DNA of 64,000 nucleotides, from positions 62,001 to 126,000 of the forward strand of contig JAQBQB010000028.1 of assembly GCA_028287235.1 (NCBI GenBank), in the 5' to 3' direction. The position numbers and the translations under genes are program-made. This stretch comes from Gemmatimonadota bacterium (GTDB lineage Bacteria; Gemmatimonadota; Gemmatimonadetes; Gemmatimonadales; Gemmatimonadaceae). Below, piece after piece: positions 40,409 through 50,253 of this stretch (positions are counted from its first letter, which is position 1; each line of letters begins with the position of its first letter). The notes under the pieces were generated by a model. It did not search any database and had not been told where the DNA came from. It worked only from the letters and a program-made list of their open reading frames with translations.

Positions 40409-40485
40409 GTTCGCGTCCGAGATCATGGCGCAGGGCATGCCGCTTGCTGCACCCGCGGCTCCCAACTTCAACGAGTCGCGGCCGC

Positions 40486-41646
40486 GTGATCAGCTTCATC
40501 GAGAACGGTGAGATCTACGCACCAGAGCCACGAGGCCGCGCGTCGGTGTTGTTGCTCGGCGACACTGTCGCCGCGATGGGCGCGATCAGCCGTCCCGCGA
40601 TCGATGCGCTCGGTATCGAATACGACGTCATCGACGCCTCGCACTCGATCGTTTGTCCAGGGTTCATCGATCCGCACGAGCACCTCCTCGGCGGCAGTGG
40701 CGAGCAAGGCTTCTCCACCGCCACGCCGGAGATCTTCCTCGAGGAAATAATTCGCTACGGCTTCACGACGGTCGTGGGCTGCCTCGGCGTCGACATCACA
40801 GGGAAGAACATGGCGGGCCTCATCGCCAGAGTGAAAGCGCTGCGCGAAGAGGGCGTCAACGCCTTGGCTTGGACCGGCGGCTATCGCGTGCCGCCGGCAA
40901 CGCTCACGGGCACAGTGCGCGACGACATCATATTCATCGACGAGGTCATCGGCGCGGGTGAGGTCGCCATCTCGGACACGCGCAGCATGGATCCCGATCC
41001 GCGCGAGGTGGCCAAGGTCGTCCACGATGCGTACGTCGGCGGAATGCTGGCGCGGAAATGCGGCCGTACTCACTTTCACGTTGGCGATCGCCCACGCCGT
41101 CTCGCGCCGCTGCGCGAGCTGATCTCGCTCTACGACGTCGAGCCCGAGTGGCTGTACGCCACCCACGTCGAACGCAGCGAGGCCCTGATGCGCGAGGCGA
41201 TCGCGCTCTCGCGCCAGGGCGCATATGTCGACATCGACGTGGTCGAAGAGGATCTGCCGAAGTGGCTCCCGTTCTATCTCGGCAACGGCGGCGACCCTTC
41301 GCGGCTCACGGTCTCGTCCGACGCATCGATCTCCAGTCCGCGCACCCTGTTCGAGCAGCTGCGCGCCAGTGTACGCGACGCGAAGCTCCCACTGGAGCGC
41401 GTTCTTCCACTGGTAACGTCGAACACCGCCGGAGCGCTTCAGCTCGCGCGTCACGGTAGGATCGCCGTAGGATGCCGCGCGCACGTCGTGCTGCTCGATC
41501 GCGTCTCGCTAGAGGTGACCGACGTGCATGGGCGCCGCGGATGGATGTTGCGTGGCGGCGAGCTCACGACCCGGTCGCATTGGTTGAGCGGCAGCAAGCG
41601 TGAGATTCATCTGGCGGGCACCAACGCCCGAGGAGAAGCGTCATGA
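40486..41646 (+). CDS. iadA: Isoaspartyl dipeptidase-like amidohydrolase
   Basis: GTG at 40486 opens a 386-residue amidohydrolase (start ISFIENGEIYAPEP). The metal motif is PGFIDPHEHLLGGSGEQGF (His-x-His). HFHVGDRPRRL and ATHVERSEAL hold further His ligands and VSSDASISSP the catalytic Asp. GCLGVDITGKNMAGLIARVK matches the IadA fold. IadA cleaves beta-Asp dipeptides, and cyanophycinase releases beta-Asp-Arg, so the enzyme completes polymer breakdown. It is followed immediately by cphB with ATGA overlap. An ATG is absent at the start, and the GTG fits the usual IadA N terminus. Confidence 0.88.
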   Translation: MISFIENGEIYAPEPRGRASVLLLGDTVAAMGAISRPAIDALGIEYDVIDASHSIVCPGFIDPHEHLLGGSGEQGFSTATPEIFLEEIIRYGFTTVVGCLGVDITGKNMAGLIARVKALREEGVNALAWTGGYRVPPATLTGTVRDDIIFIDEVIGAGEVAISDTRSMDPDPREVAKVVHDAYVGGMLARKCGRTHFHVGDRPRRLAPLRELISLYDVEPEWLYATHVERSEALMREAIALSRQGAYVDIDVVEEDLPKWLPFYLGNGGDPSRLTVSSDASISSPRTLFEQLRASVRDAKLPLERVLPLVTSNTAGALQLARHGRIAVGCRAHVVLLDRVSLEVTDVHGRRGWMLRGGELTTRSHWLSGSKREIHLAGTNARGEAS

Positions 41647-42488
41647 CACACAAGCGTGGGGCACTGATCGTCATCGGCGGACACGAGGACAAGGAAGGCG
41701 ACAAGCTGATCCTCCGCGAAGTCGCTCGACGGGCCGGACCGAACGGCAAAGTCGTTGTCTCGACCGTCGCGAGTAGCGATCCCGACGAGTATTGGGAGAT
41801 CTACAAGCGCGTCTTCCGCGGACTCGACGTACCGCACGTCTTCCATCTCGACGTGCGCGACCGCGAGGAGGCACGGTCGGAGAGGAAGTTGCGCGTGCTC
41901 GACGACGCCACCGTGGTGTTCTTCACCGGAGGCGACCAGCTCAAGATCACCAGCCAGCTGGGCGATTCCCCGCTCTACGAACGTATCTGCCAGATCTACC
42001 AGGAAGAGGGCGGGACGATCGCAGGCACGTCGGCCGGTGCCTCGATGATGTGCGAGACCATGCTCGTCCGCGGCGATCAGGAGCAGTCGGCGCGCGTCGG
42101 CGCGGAGCTCGTCATGGCACCCGGGCTGGGATTCATCAAGAACGCGATCATCGATCAGCATTTCGCGCAGCGCGGGCGCATCGGTCGGCTGCTTGGCGCG
42201 GTCGCGCACAACCCGCGGGTCCTCGGCATCGGCATCGACGAAAACACCGCCTCCGTTTTCGAGGACGCGCACTTCTCCGTCATCGGCGAGAACGCGGTGT
42301 ACGTCGTCGACGGCAGCACGTCAGGGTATTCGAACCTCGCCGAGTTGCAGCAGGATCACGCACTGTCGTTGTTCGACGTACGAGTGAGCGTGTTGAGCCA
42401 TGGAGACAGATTCGAGCTCGAGGAGCGGCGAGCGAAGGGGTCGCCGGAATGGGAGAAGAGACGGGAGCCAACAGAAGTGGTGGCCTGA
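41643..42488 (+). CDS. cphB: Cyanophycinase (peptidase S51)
   Basis: This 281-residue serine peptidase starts MTHKRGALIVIGGHEDKEGD. The nucleophile is in GTIAGTSAGASMMCETML; VFFTGGDQLKI precedes it, and FIKNAIIDQHFAQRGRIGRL supplies the catalytic His. LGIGIDENTASVFED is the family signature. CphB cuts the multi-L-arginyl-poly-L-aspartate polymer into beta-Asp-Arg dipeptides in the cytoplasm. It overlaps iadA by ATGA and reaches 40 bases into the cphA frame if cphA begins at 42449. Confidence 0.95.
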   Translation: MTHKRGALIVIGGHEDKEGDKLILREVARRAGPNGKVVVSTVASSDPDEYWEIYKRVFRGLDVPHVFHLDVRDREEARSERKLRVLDDATVVFFTGGDQLKITSQLGDSPLYERICQIYQEEGGTIAGTSAGASMMCETMLVRGDQEQSARVGAELVMAPGLGFIKNAIIDQHFAQRGRIGRLLGAVAHNPRVLGIGIDENTASVFEDAHFSVIGENAVYVVDGSTSGYSNLAELQQDHALSLFDVRVSVLSHGDRFELEERRAKGSPEWEKRREPTEVVA

Positions 42489-45154
42489 GCACCGCGGAGG
42501 GCGGAGTCGCAATCGCGGCCGCGCCGTTCGGTTCGGCCGAGATGCTCGTCAGCCGGGTGCGCGCGTTGCGCGGCCCGAACTACTGGCGCCTCGCGCCGGT
42601 GATCGCGTGCGACGTGCGCCTGGGTGCACTCGAACGGGCAACGTCGGCGGAGCTCCCGGATTTCTGCGACCGGCTGCTCGCCTTCTTGCCGTCGCTGCGG
42701 GAACATCTCTGCGTCGGCGGCGCCTCGGGCGACTTCGCCGAGGCGCTGACCTCGGGCGCAGAGCTGACGTTCGTGCTCGAACGCGTCGCGCTCGAGCTGC
42801 AGAAGTTGGTGGGGTGCGACGTCTCGTTCGGCCGGGTGGTTCACTCGGGCGACACGGGTGTGTGGTGGGTCATCGTCGCCTACGACGAAGAGGACGTCGG
42901 GCTCGATGCGATGCACGACGCCGTACTCATCGTGCGCGCGTGTATCGACGGCGCGCCGCTCGAGGTCGGCGCCCTAGTGGCGGATTTACAGGATACATAT
43001 GAGCGTTCTCGGCTCGGGCCGTCCACGGCGGCCATCGTCGAAGAAGCCCGCCGGCGCGGGATTCCCGTGCGGCGGCTCAACTCCCGCTCGCTCGTCCAGC
43101 TCGGGCTGGGGCGCAACCTCCGTCGAATTCAGGCCACGATCAGCGAGAATACAGGCTCCATTGCCGTGGAGATCGCACAGAACAAGGAGGATACCAAGCG
43201 CGTGTTGAGCAACATCGGCCTCCCCGTCCCACTCGGCGGTGCGGTGCGATCGCTGGAGCACGCCATCGAGCTGGCCAACGAGATCGGCTATCCGGTGATC
43301 CTCAAACCGATCGACTCGAGCCATGGGCGCGGCATCTCCGGGCGTCTCGACTCGCCCGACGCCCTGCCCGATGCCTGGGAGCTCGCGCGCGTCGTCTCCC
43401 TTGGCGTGCTCGTCGAGCACTTTCATACCGGGCGAGATCACCGGGTGCTCGTGGTGAACGGCCGCACGGTGGCCTGCGCCGAGCGCGTACCGGCACATGT
43501 GGTGGGCGACGGCGAGCGCACGATCCGCGAGCTGATCGACGCCGCGAATCGCGACCCGCGACGCGGCGCGGGCCACCGCAAGATCCTCACGCATCTGCCC
43601 AACGACGAACGTACCGTGGCGTTCCTCGCCAAACATGCGCTGAGCCTCGACAGCGTGCCCCTGGTCGGAGAGCGGGTATCGCTTCGCGGCACGGCCAATC
43701 TCTCGACCGGCGGCACGTCCATCGACCGCACCGACGAGATGCATCCCGACAACGTCACCGCATGCGAGATGGCGGCGGCCATCGTGGGCCTCGACATCGC
43801 CGGGATCGACGTGCTCACCGCGGATATTTCCGTGCCCTTCCGCGACAACGGCGCCGTGCTCCTCGAGGTGAACGCGGCACCGGGAATCCGCATGCACACG
43901 CATCCCACGGAGGGCCGGTCGCGTAATGCAGCCGGACCGATCGTCGACATGCTCTATCCGCCGGGCACCGATGCCACGGTACCCATCCTCGCTGTCACCG
44001 GCACGAACGGGAAAACGACGACGGTCCGTCTGCTCGCCCATCTCTTCCGAAACACCGGCCATCATGTCGGCTTCACCACGACCGACGGCGTCTACATTCA
44101 CGATCGCCTGGTGATGGAGGGCGACATGACGGGTCCATTCGCCGCCAACATCATCCTGTCGAACCCGACGATCGACGTCGCGGTACTCGAGACGGCGCGC
44201 GGCGGGATTCTCCGCTCCGGCCTCGGCTTCGACGAATGCGACGTCGGTATCGTGCTCAACGTGGCGGCCGACCACCTTGGCCTACGAGGCATCAACACTG
44301 TAGAGCAGCTCGCCGACGCGAAGAGCGTGATTCCCGCGGTCGTCAAACGCGAGGGGCACGCGGTGTTGAACGCCGACGACGCGCTCGTGTACGCAATGCG
44401 CGAGAAGACGGGCGGCGACGTCGTGCTCTTCACGGCCTGCTCGTGGGCGGAGAATCCGCGCGTCGTCGAACATCTCGCGCGCGGCGGGATCGCGGTCTGC
44501 ATCGACGACGGCCAGTTCACCGTGCGGCGCGGCACGCTCCGCATTCCGATCGCGACCGAGCGCGAGGTACCGCTGATGCTCGGTGGCGCGGCGCGCTTTC
44601 AGCGCCAGAACGTTCTCGCGGCGATCGCCGCGGCATACGCTCGGGGAATGCGCTACGACGACGTGCGCGCCGGCCTGCTCTCCTTCTTCCCCTCCGCCGT
44701 GCAATCACCGGGTCGCCTCAACATCATCCCGCTGCGAAACGGCGCGCGCGCCATCGTCGACTACGCGCACAATCCGCCGGCTATCGCGGGGTTGGTGGAT
44801 CTGATCCGACGGATGCCGGCGCGCCGGCGAGTGGGAATCGTCACGGTACCCGGCGACCGGCGCGACGACGACATTCGCGAGGCGGGCCGCCTCTGCGCCG
44901 GATTCGACCATGTGATCATCAAGGAAGACCGGGATCTTCGCGGGCGCGAGCCGGGTGGTATCGCCGCGCTGCTGCGCGAGGGACTGGCGCAGTCGGGGCG
45001 CAACGGCGGATCCGTCGAGACGATTCCGAGCGCGCAGGTGGCCATCGAGCGTGGGATGGCGCTGGTGGGCCAGGACGATCTGCTGATCATCCTGGCCGAG
45101 AAGGTGCCGCAAACCCTCGCCGCGATTCGCGCCTATGCCGTCAACCGCGAATGA
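42449..45154 (+). CDS. cphA: Cyanophycin synthetase
   Basis: This 901-residue enzyme polymerises Asp and Arg onto cyanophycin using ATP. The N-terminal domain starts at residue 32 with MLVSRVRALRGPNYWRLAPV. The ATP-grasp region (about 185-500) has NEIGYPVILKPIDSSHGRGI and LEVNAAPGIRMHTHPTEGRS. The Mur-ligase-like region has the P-loop VTGTNGKTTTVRLLAHLF at about 516 and ETARGGILRSGLGFDECDVG. The C-terminal domain includes IVDYAHNPPAIAGLVDL. Length is normal for CphA. ATG at 42542 is an alternative start exactly at the conserved block, but 42449 has AAGGGG upstream. It overlaps the next gene as ATGA. Confidence 0.97.
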   Translation: MGEETGANRSGGLSTAEGGVAIAAAPFGSAEMLVSRVRALRGPNYWRLAPVIACDVRLGALERATSAELPDFCDRLLAFLPSLREHLCVGGASGDFAEALTSGAELTFVLERVALELQKLVGCDVSFGRVVHSGDTGVWWVIVAYDEEDVGLDAMHDAVLIVRACIDGAPLEVGALVADLQDTYERSRLGPSTAAIVEEARRRGIPVRRLNSRSLVQLGLGRNLRRIQATISENTGSIAVEIAQNKEDTKRVLSNIGLPVPLGGAVRSLEHAIELANEIGYPVILKPIDSSHGRGISGRLDSPDALPDAWELARVVSLGVLVEHFHTGRDHRVLVVNGRTVACAERVPAHVVGDGERTIRELIDAANRDPRRGAGHRKILTHLPNDERTVAFLAKHALSLDSVPLVGERVSLRGTANLSTGGTSIDRTDEMHPDNVTACEMAAAIVGLDIAGIDVLTADISVPFRDNGAVLLEVNAAPGIRMHTHPTEGRSRNAAGPIVDMLYPPGTDATVPILAVTGTNGKTTTVRLLAHLFRNTGHHVGFTTTDGVYIHDRLVMEGDMTGPFAANIILSNPTIDVAVLETARGGILRSGLGFDECDVGIVLNVAADHLGLRGINTVEQLADAKSVIPAVVKREGHAVLNADDALVYAMREKTGGDVVLFTACSWAENPRVVEHLARGGIAVCIDDGQFTVRRGTLRIPIATEREVPLMLGGAARFQRQNVLAAIAAAYARGMRYDDVRAGLLSFFPSAVQSPGRLNIIPLRNGARAIVDYAHNPPAIAGLVDLIRRMPARRRVGIVTVPGDRRDDDIREAGRLCAGFDHVIIKEDRDLRGREPGGIAALLREGLAQSGRNGGSVETIPSAQVAIERGMALVGQDDLLIILAEKVPQTLAAIRAYAVNRE

Positions 45155-46209
45155 CGGACCATCCCTTCCCGGATCCCGCCGGCGAAATCTGCATCGCGAC
45201 GCTGCACGCGGCGCGCGGAATCAATTTCTGGTCGCGCCGGCCGGTGATCCGCATGGACATGAGCGTGGGGGCGTATGACGACATCTCGTCGGCCGACGCG
45301 GGCGACACCACCGACCGGCTGGTTCGCGCAATGCCGGGACTCCACGAACATCACTGCAGCATCGGCGCTCCCGGTGGATTCGTGACGCGCCTGCGACGGG
45401 GAACCTACGCGCCGCACATCATCGAGCACGTGGCGCTCGAGCTACAATCGATGATCGGACACGATGTCGGATATGGACGCACCCGCGGCGGCGGCGCCCC
45501 CGGCGAATACACCGTCGTATTCGAACACCAGCACGAGCACGTGGGACTGCGCGCCGCGGCCCTGTCACTCGGCGTCGTACAACAGGCCTTCGCCGGCACG
45601 CTCGACAGCGTGGCACCGTTGGTGACCGAGCTCGCGATGCTCGCCGGGACCAACGACACTCCTGCGATCGATCAACGCGTGCTGTGCGGCATCACGGGAG
45701 GAAGCGGCCGCGCCGAGACTCGGCAACATCTCATCGAACGTCTCGCGACCGCCGGCATTTCCAACGCATTGGTGATCGACGTCTCTCCGGCCGATCTCCT
45801 CCAGGCCGGTATTCCCTACTCGCGGTCGGAGGTCGCGGTCGTGCTCGACGCCGAGCTCACCGACGTGCCGCAGCGCTACCGGGCAGCCGACCATGCACGC
45901 CGGCTCGTCGGTATCCTCGCCGACGCCGTGCAACGCGACGGTGTCGTGATCTGTCCGGCCAAGGACTGGGAGCTTCAGGACTACGCACGCGATCAGGACT
46001 GCCGCGTCGCGATCTTCGCCTCGGACGACGACGTGACGACGCGCGACCAGAAGGTGGCGATGGCGGTTGGACGCGTTCGCGACGGCCAGATCGTTCTCCA
46101 AAACTGCGGCGATCCGATTTCGGCTGGCCTCGTGCGCGACGACTCTCCTGTCGCGCCGCAGGTCGCCGCTGCGCTCACCGAGTACATCATCCGAAACCAT
46201 GCCGAATGA
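45151..46209 (+). CDS. Truncated cyanophycin synthetase-like protein lacking ATP-grasp
   Basis: This 352-residue protein aligns with CphA in two separate parts. Residues 14-165 match the CphA N-terminal domain (IATLHAARGINFWSRRPVIR, APHIIEHVALELQSMIGHDV, EHQHEHVGLRAAALSLGVV). The ATP-grasp domain is missing entirely. From about residue 177, VLCGITGGSGRAETRQHLIE stands where CphA has VTGTNGKTTT, so the P-loop Lys-Thr pair is gone. Then ALVIDVSPADLLQAGIPYSR and VAVVLDAELTDVPQRYRAAD match the rest of the Mur core, with about 35 residues deleted. It cannot be a normal synthetase and may bind polymer or CphA. It overlaps cphA by ATGA and the next gene by 11 bases. Confidence 0.85.
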   Translation: MTDHPFPDPAGEICIATLHAARGINFWSRRPVIRMDMSVGAYDDISSADAGDTTDRLVRAMPGLHEHHCSIGAPGGFVTRLRRGTYAPHIIEHVALELQSMIGHDVGYGRTRGGGAPGEYTVVFEHQHEHVGLRAAALSLGVVQQAFAGTLDSVAPLVTELAMLAGTNDTPAIDQRVLCGITGGSGRAETRQHLIERLATAGISNALVIDVSPADLLQAGIPYSRSEVAVVLDAELTDVPQRYRAADHARRLVGILADAVQRDGVVICPAKDWELQDYARDQDCRVAIFASDDDVTTRDQKVAMAVGRVRDGQIVLQNCGDPISAGLVRDDSPVAPQVAAALTEYIIRNHAE

Positions 46210-48457: not shown

Positions 48458-50056
48458 TCACGCTGGAGCCGCCACGGTGCCTGCAACGCTTCCCATGACC
48501 CGCCGGTAGACGTTCAGGTATTTCACCGCCGACTGATCCCAGCCGAAGTCGCGCAACATCGCGGAGCGCATCATGGCGAGCCAGCCGTCGGGCTCCTCGA
48601 ACTGGTCGATCGCCCGCGCTACGGCGCGGGTGAAATCGTCCGGCGTGTAGTCGTCAAACAGAAACCCCGTGACGCCGTCTTCGATCGTGTCGGCCAACCC
48701 GCCCACGCGGCGGGCGATCGGAATCGTTCCGTACCGCTGGGCGCGCATCTGCGTGAGCCCGCACGGCTCGTACTGCGACGGCATGAGACACATGTCTGCG
48801 CCGGCCAGCACCCGGTGCTCGAGCTCATCGCTGAACCGCGTCTCGACCACGATCCGGTTCGGGGCGCGGTTCGCGATCGCGCGCAACGCCGTCTCGTAGC
48901 GCGGCTCACCCGCGCCGAGAAAGAGGAACTGCGCGTCGAACGCGAAGTAGTTCGGGTTGCCGAGGATCAGGTCGAGCCCTTTCTGCGATACCAGCCGGGC
49001 GCTCATCGCGACAATCGGCATCTCGTCGGTCGGCCGGAGGCCCGTCTCGCGCTGCAGCGCGTACCGGCACTCGAGCTTTCCGGCCAGGGAATCGACGGAG
49101 TAGTTCTCCGCCAGGAGCGGGTCCGTCGCCGGATCCCAGAGCTGTTGGTCGATACCGTTCGCGATACCCACGAACCGGTCGCGCAGCGACACGAACACGC
49201 CGTCGAGGCCGAAGCCGCCGGCGAAGGTGCGCAGCTCGTGCGCGTGGGTCGGGCTCACGGTCGTCACGGCATCGGCGAAGACCAGCCCTCCCTTCAGCAT
49301 GTTCATCTGTCCGTGCCACTCGAGCTGACGCCAGTTGAACAACGCGGGCGGCAACCCGAGGTCAGCCATCGACGCCGGCGGAAAGTGCCCCTGAAACCCC
49401 GCGTTGTGCACCGACAGCACGACCTTCACCCGCCGGTACCGCTCGTCCGAGGAGAACTTGGTGCGCAGATAAACCGGAGCGAGCGCCGTATGCCAGTCGT
49501 GCACGTGCACGAGCACCGGATCCGACCCCGCGATGGTCGGAAGTGCGGCAAGCGCCGCCATGCTGAAGCAGGCGTACCGGCGGGCGTTGTCCGGAAAATC
49601 ACTGCCCGGTGGACCGTAGATGTACGGCCGCGCGAAATACGCCTCGCTCTCGATGAAGTACACGCTCGCACGTCCCAGCGGACCGTTCGGCCGCGAAGGA
49701 AGCTTCCAGAGGCGAACCGTCTCGCGGCGCGGCCCCACCTGGACGTGAAACTCCGGTCCCACCGGCTCGATATCGGGAGCGGTCGCTCTCACGGCGTCGT
49801 ACAGCGGCATGACGACCGCGGTGCGAATCCCCGCTGCGGACTGGAAGCGGGCAAGGCTGTTCACCGCCTCGCCAAGCCCGCCGCTCCGCGCAAAGGGCGC
49901 CAGCTCGGCCACGACGTGCACGACGCACGCATCGCGTCCGTCCGCCGTCTGCAGCGGCGACGGCGTAGTCGGAGCGGCGGGTACGGCCGGCGGAGCGCTG
50001 GTCAACGAGATGACCGGCGCCGCTGGTCGAGTGCTGCGGTGCGGCAGGTTTTTCAT
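48458..50056 (-). CDS. glgA: Glycogen synthase, GT5 family
   Basis: The ATG at 50056 follows an AGGAA RBS and gives 532 residues. About 40 Pro/Ala-rich residues precede the catalytic domain, which starts ACVVHVVAELAPFARSGGLG. The family's KTGGL loop is read here as RSGGL, so the ADP-glucose-binding Lys is Arg. Other motifs are intact: VHVHDWHTALAPVYL, FSVHNAGFQGHFPP-like, and the C-terminal SQYEPCGLTQMRAQRYGTIP and RRVGGLADTIED. The enzyme extends alpha-1,4-glucan from ADP-glucose. It is 19 bases upstream of the Lgt-like gene, which may be co-transcribed. Confidence 0.93.
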   Translation of the reverse strand: MKNLPHRSTRPAAPVISLTSAPPAVPAAPTTPSPLQTADGRDACVVHVVAELAPFARSGGLGEAVNSLARFQSAAGIRTAVVMPLYDAVRATAPDIEPVGPEFHVQVGPRRETVRLWKLPSRPNGPLGRASVYFIESEAYFARPYIYGPPGSDFPDNARRYACFSMAALAALPTIAGSDPVLVHVHDWHTALAPVYLRTKFSSDERYRRVKVVLSVHNAGFQGHFPPASMADLGLPPALFNWRQLEWHGQMNMLKGGLVFADAVTTVSPTHAHELRTFAGGFGLDGVFVSLRDRFVGIANGIDQQLWDPATDPLLAENYSVDSLAGKLECRYALQRETGLRPTDEMPIVAMSARLVSQKGLDLILGNPNYFAFDAQFLFLGAGEPRYETALRAIANRAPNRIVVETRFSDELEHRVLAGADMCLMPSQYEPCGLTQMRAQRYGTIPIARRVGGLADTIEDGVTGFLFDDYTPDDFTRAVARAIDQFEEPDGWLAMMRSAMLRDFGWDQSAVKYLNVYRRVMGSVAGTVAAPA

Positions 50057-50253
50057 CTGCAATTCCTCGGATCGTCGGAGCGATCACGATCGTAATTCAC
50101 ATTATCCCGTCCCCGTCGTCGGCGCCATGGCCAGCGAACGGGCAGGCTCGGCAAACGGGCGACCGAGACAGGCTCGTTACCCCGTCAGGAGATTCCCGCT
50201 TGCGCGGCACGCCTTTCTGCCGTAACCGTGTCGTTACTCACAGGGAGGGCGAC

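Follow-up and report, generated by a model that had tools for sequence, protein, structure and literature searches.

In this work, we describe an open reading frame (ORF) found in a stretch of 64,000 nucleotides from a bacterium of the phylum Gemmatimonadota (contig JAQBQB010000028.1, positions 62,001 to 126,000), hereafter called the window; all coordinates below are positions within it. The ORF occupies positions 45151-46209 in an operon devoted to cyanophycin, a nitrogen-storage polymer, and directly follows cphA, the cyanophycin synthetase gene. We use the name twin for its product and for the orthologues of this product, whose carriers are soil bacteria of the same phylum. As an earlier reading of the sequence alone (the sequence-only reading) had stated, the ORF is intact and overlaps cphA, its own ATG sharing bases with the cphA stop codon as ATGA. 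The features of twin are as follows:

45151..46209, + strand: twin, 352 amino acids; CphA1 N-terminal (N) domain joined to a Mur-ligase core predicted to be catalytically dead, without ATP-grasp and without the C-terminal lid
45253..45585, + strand: N domain of twin (PF18921, residues 35-145), the 'third active site' domain of CphA1; Pfam 120 bits, phmmer E=2e-24 to SuCphA1 7lg5
45355..45429, + strand: Cx19HxxEH motif, placed by alignment, with residue roles taken from PMC9262961; C69 at 45355-45357, H89 at 45415-45417, E92 at 45424-45426 and H93 at 45427-45429
45697..45720, + strand: degenerate P-loop GGSGRAET (residues 183-190) with the Walker Lys replaced by Arg187, from the alignment of orthologues
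45922..45924, + strand: Asp258, which in the sequence alignment appears opposite Glu607 of the SuCphA1 M domain

The cyanophycin-synthase N-terminal domain PF18921 is the sole Pfam match of twin, and neither an ATP-grasp nor a Mur_ligase_C domain is detected by Pfam. With the TIGR02068 model of full CphA, whose cut-off is 850 bits, the protein reaches 157 bits, which places it outside CphA1. The sequence-only reading, which saw a retained CphA N-terminal domain and the loss of ATP-grasp and of the C-terminal domain, is borne out on these points; what it overlooked is that the N domain carries a catalytic site, Cx19HxxEH.

In CphA1, the N domain is a slow, zinc-dependent endo-cyanophycinase with a Cx19HxxEH site, and it makes primers out of trace amounts of polymer (Sharon et al. 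2022, PMC9262961). Primer-independent synthesis is weakened or lost in SuCphA1 with H57A, C59A, R70A, H79A or E82Q, and TmCphA1 gains primer independence in trans from the isolated N domain; to be isolated, this domain required solubilising mutations in a loop that is normally packed on the M domain (PMC9262961). The same study reports that M-domain residues S603 and E607 contact the polymer bound in the N site, and that CphA1 functions as dimers and tetramers (PMC9262961). Twin shares with the SuCphA1 N domain (7txv; PMC9262961) its sequence, its fold, the Cx19HxxEH motif, the accessory residues and the position on a Mur core common to both. It differs from SuCphA1 in being a separate natural gene product that lacks ATP-grasp and whose Mur core is lid-less and, by its sequence, dead.

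To determine how widely the site is kept, a PF18921 survey covered 395 genomes of the phylum, all 179 genomes available for the family and 21 of a second family; the loci were then fetched. It yielded 39 genomes with twin, 41 T-type partner CphAs that have the motif, 72 S-type CphAs and 6 CphAs that lack it. Residues C69, H89, E92 and H93 of twin correspond to C59, H79, E82 and H83 of SuCphA1, and each is present in 39/39 twins. In SuCphA1 numbering, the same is true of H57, S60, G65, G66, F67 and R70, while R102 is kept in 38/39 and Y110 in all 38 twins readable at that position. The C-x19-HxxEH spacing is found in every aligned twin, the apparent C20 of the G357 protein being a CC pair read from its first Cys. 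Thus, the residue set of an N-domain endo-cyanophycinase (Cx19HxxEH together with H57, R70 and F67) is complete in all 39, and its fold and its pose on the Mur core are found in the AlphaFold2 model compared with 7txv.

Two other groups of proteins invite comparison. CphA2, which lacks the N-site motif (PMC9262961), resembles twin in being a paralogue of CphA whose Mur core has degenerated and which is left with a single active site; however, it works through ATP-grasp, so that twin, with the N site kept in 39/39 and ATP-grasp gone, is its mirror image, and the statement of the sequence-only reading that this is not the CphA2 layout stands. The M16 inverzincins have HxxEH in common with twin, but the third ligand in CphA1 N domains is an upstream Cys, unlike in M16, and the relation is distant at best (PMC9262961). 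No Pfam match to the M16 inverzincin family was obtained in twin at E<=1.

The remainder of twin is joined to the Mur ligases by several agreeing but weak sequence matches. In phmmer, a second, sub-threshold segment aligns with CphA1 554-643; hhalign pairs twin with the M domain of the partner CphA at E=1e-4 but with a probability of just 57%; and a profile of twins finds the M domain of CphA1 with E values of about 1e-6 to 1e-9. These matches are settled by the AlphaFold2 model of the protein alone, a prediction that the sequence-only reading had proposed, which has a predicted local distance difference test score (pLDDT) of 93 and a predicted TM score (pTM) of 0.85. In structure comparisons, Z is 15-17 for model residues 172-350 with Mur ligase cores (MurC/D/E/F) and 33.5 for the complete model with CphA1. 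Residues 13-352 superpose on TeCphA1 and SuCphA1 (Z 33, 2.4-2.6 Å), with the ATP-grasp domain skipped, and 333 residues superpose on 7txv, the SuCphA1 E82Q-polymer complex and one of the nearest structures (2.6 Å, Z 33.3), the N domain and the Mur core jointly. On this model, the C-terminal part of twin has the Mur-ligase central-domain fold, which agrees with the shortened Mur core proposed before.

The sequence of this core predicts that it is catalytically dead, with no usual P-loop, no Asp-His pair and no C-terminal domain. GGSGRAET stands in place of GTNGKTTT, as the sequence-only reading had noted, and the Walker lysine position holds Arg in 32 and Lys in none of the 34 twins scored; the Asp-His pair of the Mur site is absent from these twins. 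The residue matching CphA1 E607 is acidic (D or E) in 34/34. New invariant positions have arisen in the core (P213, G220, P240 and L252, with R242 and Y243 nearly so) and, taken with the preserved pose of the N domain on the modelled M domain, they suggest that the Mur core is a scaffold.

All twins fall into one clade (support 100/99), which is separate from that of the T-type CphAs (100/98). The clade is old, and the length and place of twin are alike in two Gemmatimonadota families; the same short form lies beside cphA in relatives. Ratios of nonsynonymous to synonymous substitution rates (dN/dS) indicate purifying selection: most N-domain values lie at 0.03-0.3 and most Mur-core values at 0.08-0.44, with one pair at 0.63; of the two parts, the core is the faster to evolve. 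The N domain of twin is slower than that of the partner CphA in 10 of 11 disjoint pairs when G353/G437 is set aside, the G437 twin being frameshifted; with this pair included, the comparison is only suggestive (Wilcoxon p=0.13). G437 carries the only frameshifted twin among close relatives, possibly through an assembly error. Two further variants were observed. At L178:3220-4857 (the same as L100), the twin ORF has 545 amino acids and runs into an unrelated-looking tail, possibly through a lost stop or an assembly effect, and no cyan2 gene (a second cyanophycinase, described below) adjoins it within the stretch read. At L029:6850-7722, the twin of the Roseisolibacter-type genome G019 has a Mur core about 60 residues shorter, and cyan2 is not adjoining.

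The partner CphA of the window has the following features:

42485..45154, + strand: cphA of the T type, start codon uncertain; the sites of the ATP-grasp and Mur domains are kept and that of the N domain is lost; TIGR02068 1056 bits
42770..42784, + strand: ruined zinc site of the window CphA, with F96 for H79 (42770-42772) and R100 for H83 (42782-42784)

The sequence-only reading called this cphA intact, which holds for ATP-grasp and for the Mur site, whose P-loop and Asp-His pair are kept; it does not hold for the enzyme's own third site. Further N-site changes are S60V, G66D, R70A and T75A, and since the changes are many and in frame, they speak against a sequencing error. PF18921 detects two genes only in the window genome, cphA and twin, and with the CphA site ruined, no intact third site other than that of twin was detected there. 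The idea that all partner CphAs lost HxxEH was ruled out, since outside the window genome the zinc ligands and HxxEH are kept in 41/41 T-type CphAs. These CphAs carry T101V in 38/41, R102V in 40/41 and Y110W in 38/41, whereas CphA1 of other phyla keep T in 60/61, R in 52/61 and Y in 57/61 at positions 101, 102 and 110, as S-type CphAs do too. Moreover, position 607 holds A, S or Q in 34/34 T-type CphAs scored, against E in the 23 CphA1 proteins of other phyla that were scored. None of the 114 Gemmatimonadota cphA genomes examined is without an intact N site. Two genomes have a T-type cphA and no detected twin, namely G339 and G349 (both with an S-type cphA too), and the same was seen at a contig end in G198 and in the incomplete genome G436.

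CphA paralogues without the N site occur in 5/39 twin genomes and in 1/75 others (Fisher p=0.017, uncorrected for phylogeny). A separate paralogue clade (L094, L093, L183, L184 and L189) has an intact P-loop and a ruined N site, with 4/5 members in twin genomes; in L093, the N domain and the ATP-grasp and M parts (G/M) lie in different frames.

We consider it probable that twin is an endo-cyanophycinase acting in trans and serving CphA, mostly by making primers. According to this proposal, twin would be the third active site of CphA1 set apart in a protein of its own and dedicated to that function; its N domain is predicted to cut inside cyanophycin chains in a zinc-dependent manner, with C69, H89 and H93 as ligands and E92 as general base. 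The Mur core, with no usual ATP binding or arginine addition expected of it, may have been retained as a scaffold on which the N domain stays posed as in CphA1; D258, the sequence counterpart of E607, could give the polymer one acidic contact. The substrate of twin would be polymer from the neighbouring CphA. In the N site of that enzyme, contacts to the substrate have been lost across the lineage, and the zinc ligands too in the window genome; the most likely products of twin would be short chains that serve CphA as primers. The biochemical part, internal cutting of cyanophycin by twin, is stronger than the physiological part. What the present analysis shows for twin is its conservation, architecture, modelled fold, residue pattern and genomic coupling. 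The endo-cyanophycinase nature of the site and the trans action of an isolated N domain rest on published CphA1 work, while twin probably has this activity itself and probably uses it for priming rather than for breakdown.

The operon reads isoaspartyl dipeptidase-like gene, cyanophycinase 1, cphA, twin and cyanophycinase 2, with neighbours overlapping by a few bases and the cphA start uncertain. Its other members are:

40447..41646, + strand: isoaspartyl dipeptidase-like (IadA-like) gene; TIGR01975 287 bits, below the cut-off of 331; start uncertain
41643..42488, + strand: cyan1, a conventional cyanophycinase; TIGR02069 279 bits
46199..47143, + strand: cyan2, a second cyanophycinase; overlaps twin by 11 base pairs, S51 triad kept

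Cyanophycinases (S51, CphB/CphE) also cut cyanophycin, but they are serine exo-peptidases unrelated to twin. The product of cyan2 belongs to a distinct subfamily, in which the Ser-His-Glu triad is intact and Gln173 is replaced by Thr in 37/37. Where contig ends permit a view, twin usually lies between a T-type cphA and cyan2.

These neighbours open a serious alternative, in which twin opens the stored polymer for the exo-cyanophycinase cyan2, so that the two form a breakdown unit and priming is incidental. Several observations weigh against the priming proposal here. Twin tracks cyan2 as closely as it tracks cphA, which fits breakdown equally: in the family, the cyan2 subfamily is present in 22/24 twin genomes and in 0/154 others, genomes that are not phylogenetically independent and so closely related that the p-value of the association is inflated. 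Cyan2 is also found with twin in G322 and G384, genomes in which cphA lies elsewhere. Zinc-ligand loss in T-type cphA is limited to the window genome, the partners in nearly all other twin genomes retaining their ligands, and the idea that selection on the partner N domain is relaxed in general was rejected, since the rate of this domain over that of ATP-grasp does not exceed the ratio in S-type CphAs without a twin (dN(N)/dN(G) 1.32 vs 1.36, p=0.98). The intact triad and the conserved Thr of cyan2 also favour mobilisation. However, twin adjoins cphA with no adjacent cyan2 found in G019, G363 and G400, no twin genome without a T-type cphA was found in the survey, and the operon already holds a conventional exo-cyanophycinase. 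The N site of CphA1 is slow (PMC9262961), which suits priming more than bulk breakdown. We regard mobilisation as the main rival, less likely than priming.

The sequence-only reading suggested that twin may cap or bind the polymer or join CphA in mixed oligomers. The retention of the CphA1 N-M unit, the start/stop overlap with cphA, which suggests coupled expression, and the dimers and tetramers of CphA1 (PMC9262961) are in keeping with it. Nevertheless, the N domain has all the residues known to be necessary for the zinc endo-cyanophycinase, and a passive binder need not hold the general base E82 and the metal ligands at 39/39 while its Mur site decays; a non-catalytic partner is therefore improbable and is no longer the first choice. 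Mixed complexes of CphA and twin are possible and compatible with catalysis, and they would compete with the preferred endo-cyanophycinase only if the N site were dead. That twin might instead be what is left of a second cphA, decaying as selection relaxes, could be read from the faster Mur core and from the further shortened C-terminal part in Roseisolibacter-type G019. This highly improbable explanation was rejected on the strength of the 39-genome clade, the recurrence of the same length and place in two families, the purifying selection and the invariant catalytic residues. The sequence-only reading had named a full-length second cphA here in relatives as the finding that would refute it; none was found, and relatives carry the short form instead.

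A comparable division of sites was met outside the phylum, where tandem cphA pairs are common among the sampled Pseudomonadota genomes with matches; cphA/cphA' of Ralstonia eutropha is a pair of this kind. In 12/12 fetched pairs (L230-L241), the upstream protein has the N motif without the usual M P-loop and Asp-His pair, and the downstream protein has the M site and has lost the N motif; the upstream proteins of L238 and L240 contain an unrelated or variant GxxGKT-like string. As in twin and CphA, one partner holds the N site with a dead M site and the other the reverse, but the Pseudomonadota N-site partner retains the ATP-grasp region and has 720-907 amino acids, in contrast to the 352 of twin. 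These pairs support the view that the N site can be handed to a partner protein. No description of an N/M site split in tandem pairs was found in the literature searched; adjacent genes for 'CphA1, CphA2 encoded next to each other' are mentioned in PMC5178258 and may be such a pair. More tentatively, T-type CphA, twin and cyan2 might form an obligate multi-protein module in the Gemmatimonadota lineage, its cutting site moved to a separate pseudo-Mur subunit, perhaps in a mixed particle; with an independent split in Pseudomonadota, natively heteromeric cyanophycin synthesis could then be a general design.

In a profile scan of contigs, full-length twins were confined to Gemmatimonadota among the best 80 of 256 matches, and the same scan with a single-protein query gave no match. 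No match to all 352 positions was found in the phylum samples of G443 (Microcoleus, 292 genomes), G441 (Sphingobacterium, 296) and G444 (Legionella, 299), and the plasmid search matched cphA only. In the G441 sample, G909:C51:26902-27315 holds a 171-amino-acid frame in which the N-domain match covers just 13-148, possibly because of a contig end or a truncated cphA. A natural stand-alone N site on a pseudo-Mur scaffold, conserved in two Gemmatimonadota families and paired with a synthase in which that site is altered or lost, appears to be undescribed, as no account of a natural stand-alone N-site protein like twin was found in the literature searched; the active site itself is known. The description of this primer-making CphA1 site dates only from 2022 and concerns a single enzyme, with trans action shown through an engineered domain (PMC9262961). 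Nature has seemingly built the same construct, with a scaffold instead of solubilising mutations, beside a synthase without the site. The pair of twin and CphA allows the in vivo need for primer making to be tested cleanly in a natural setting, and it could serve cyanophycin production in heterologous hosts, where primer supply is reported to limit the yield (PMC9262961). For annotation, PF18921 genes of 350-440 amino acids should not be filed as truncated cphA.

Near the cyanophycin operon, at 48458-50062 on the - strand, lies a glycogen-synthase-like gene, named from its translation only; genes for carbon and nitrogen storage are thus neighbours in the window.

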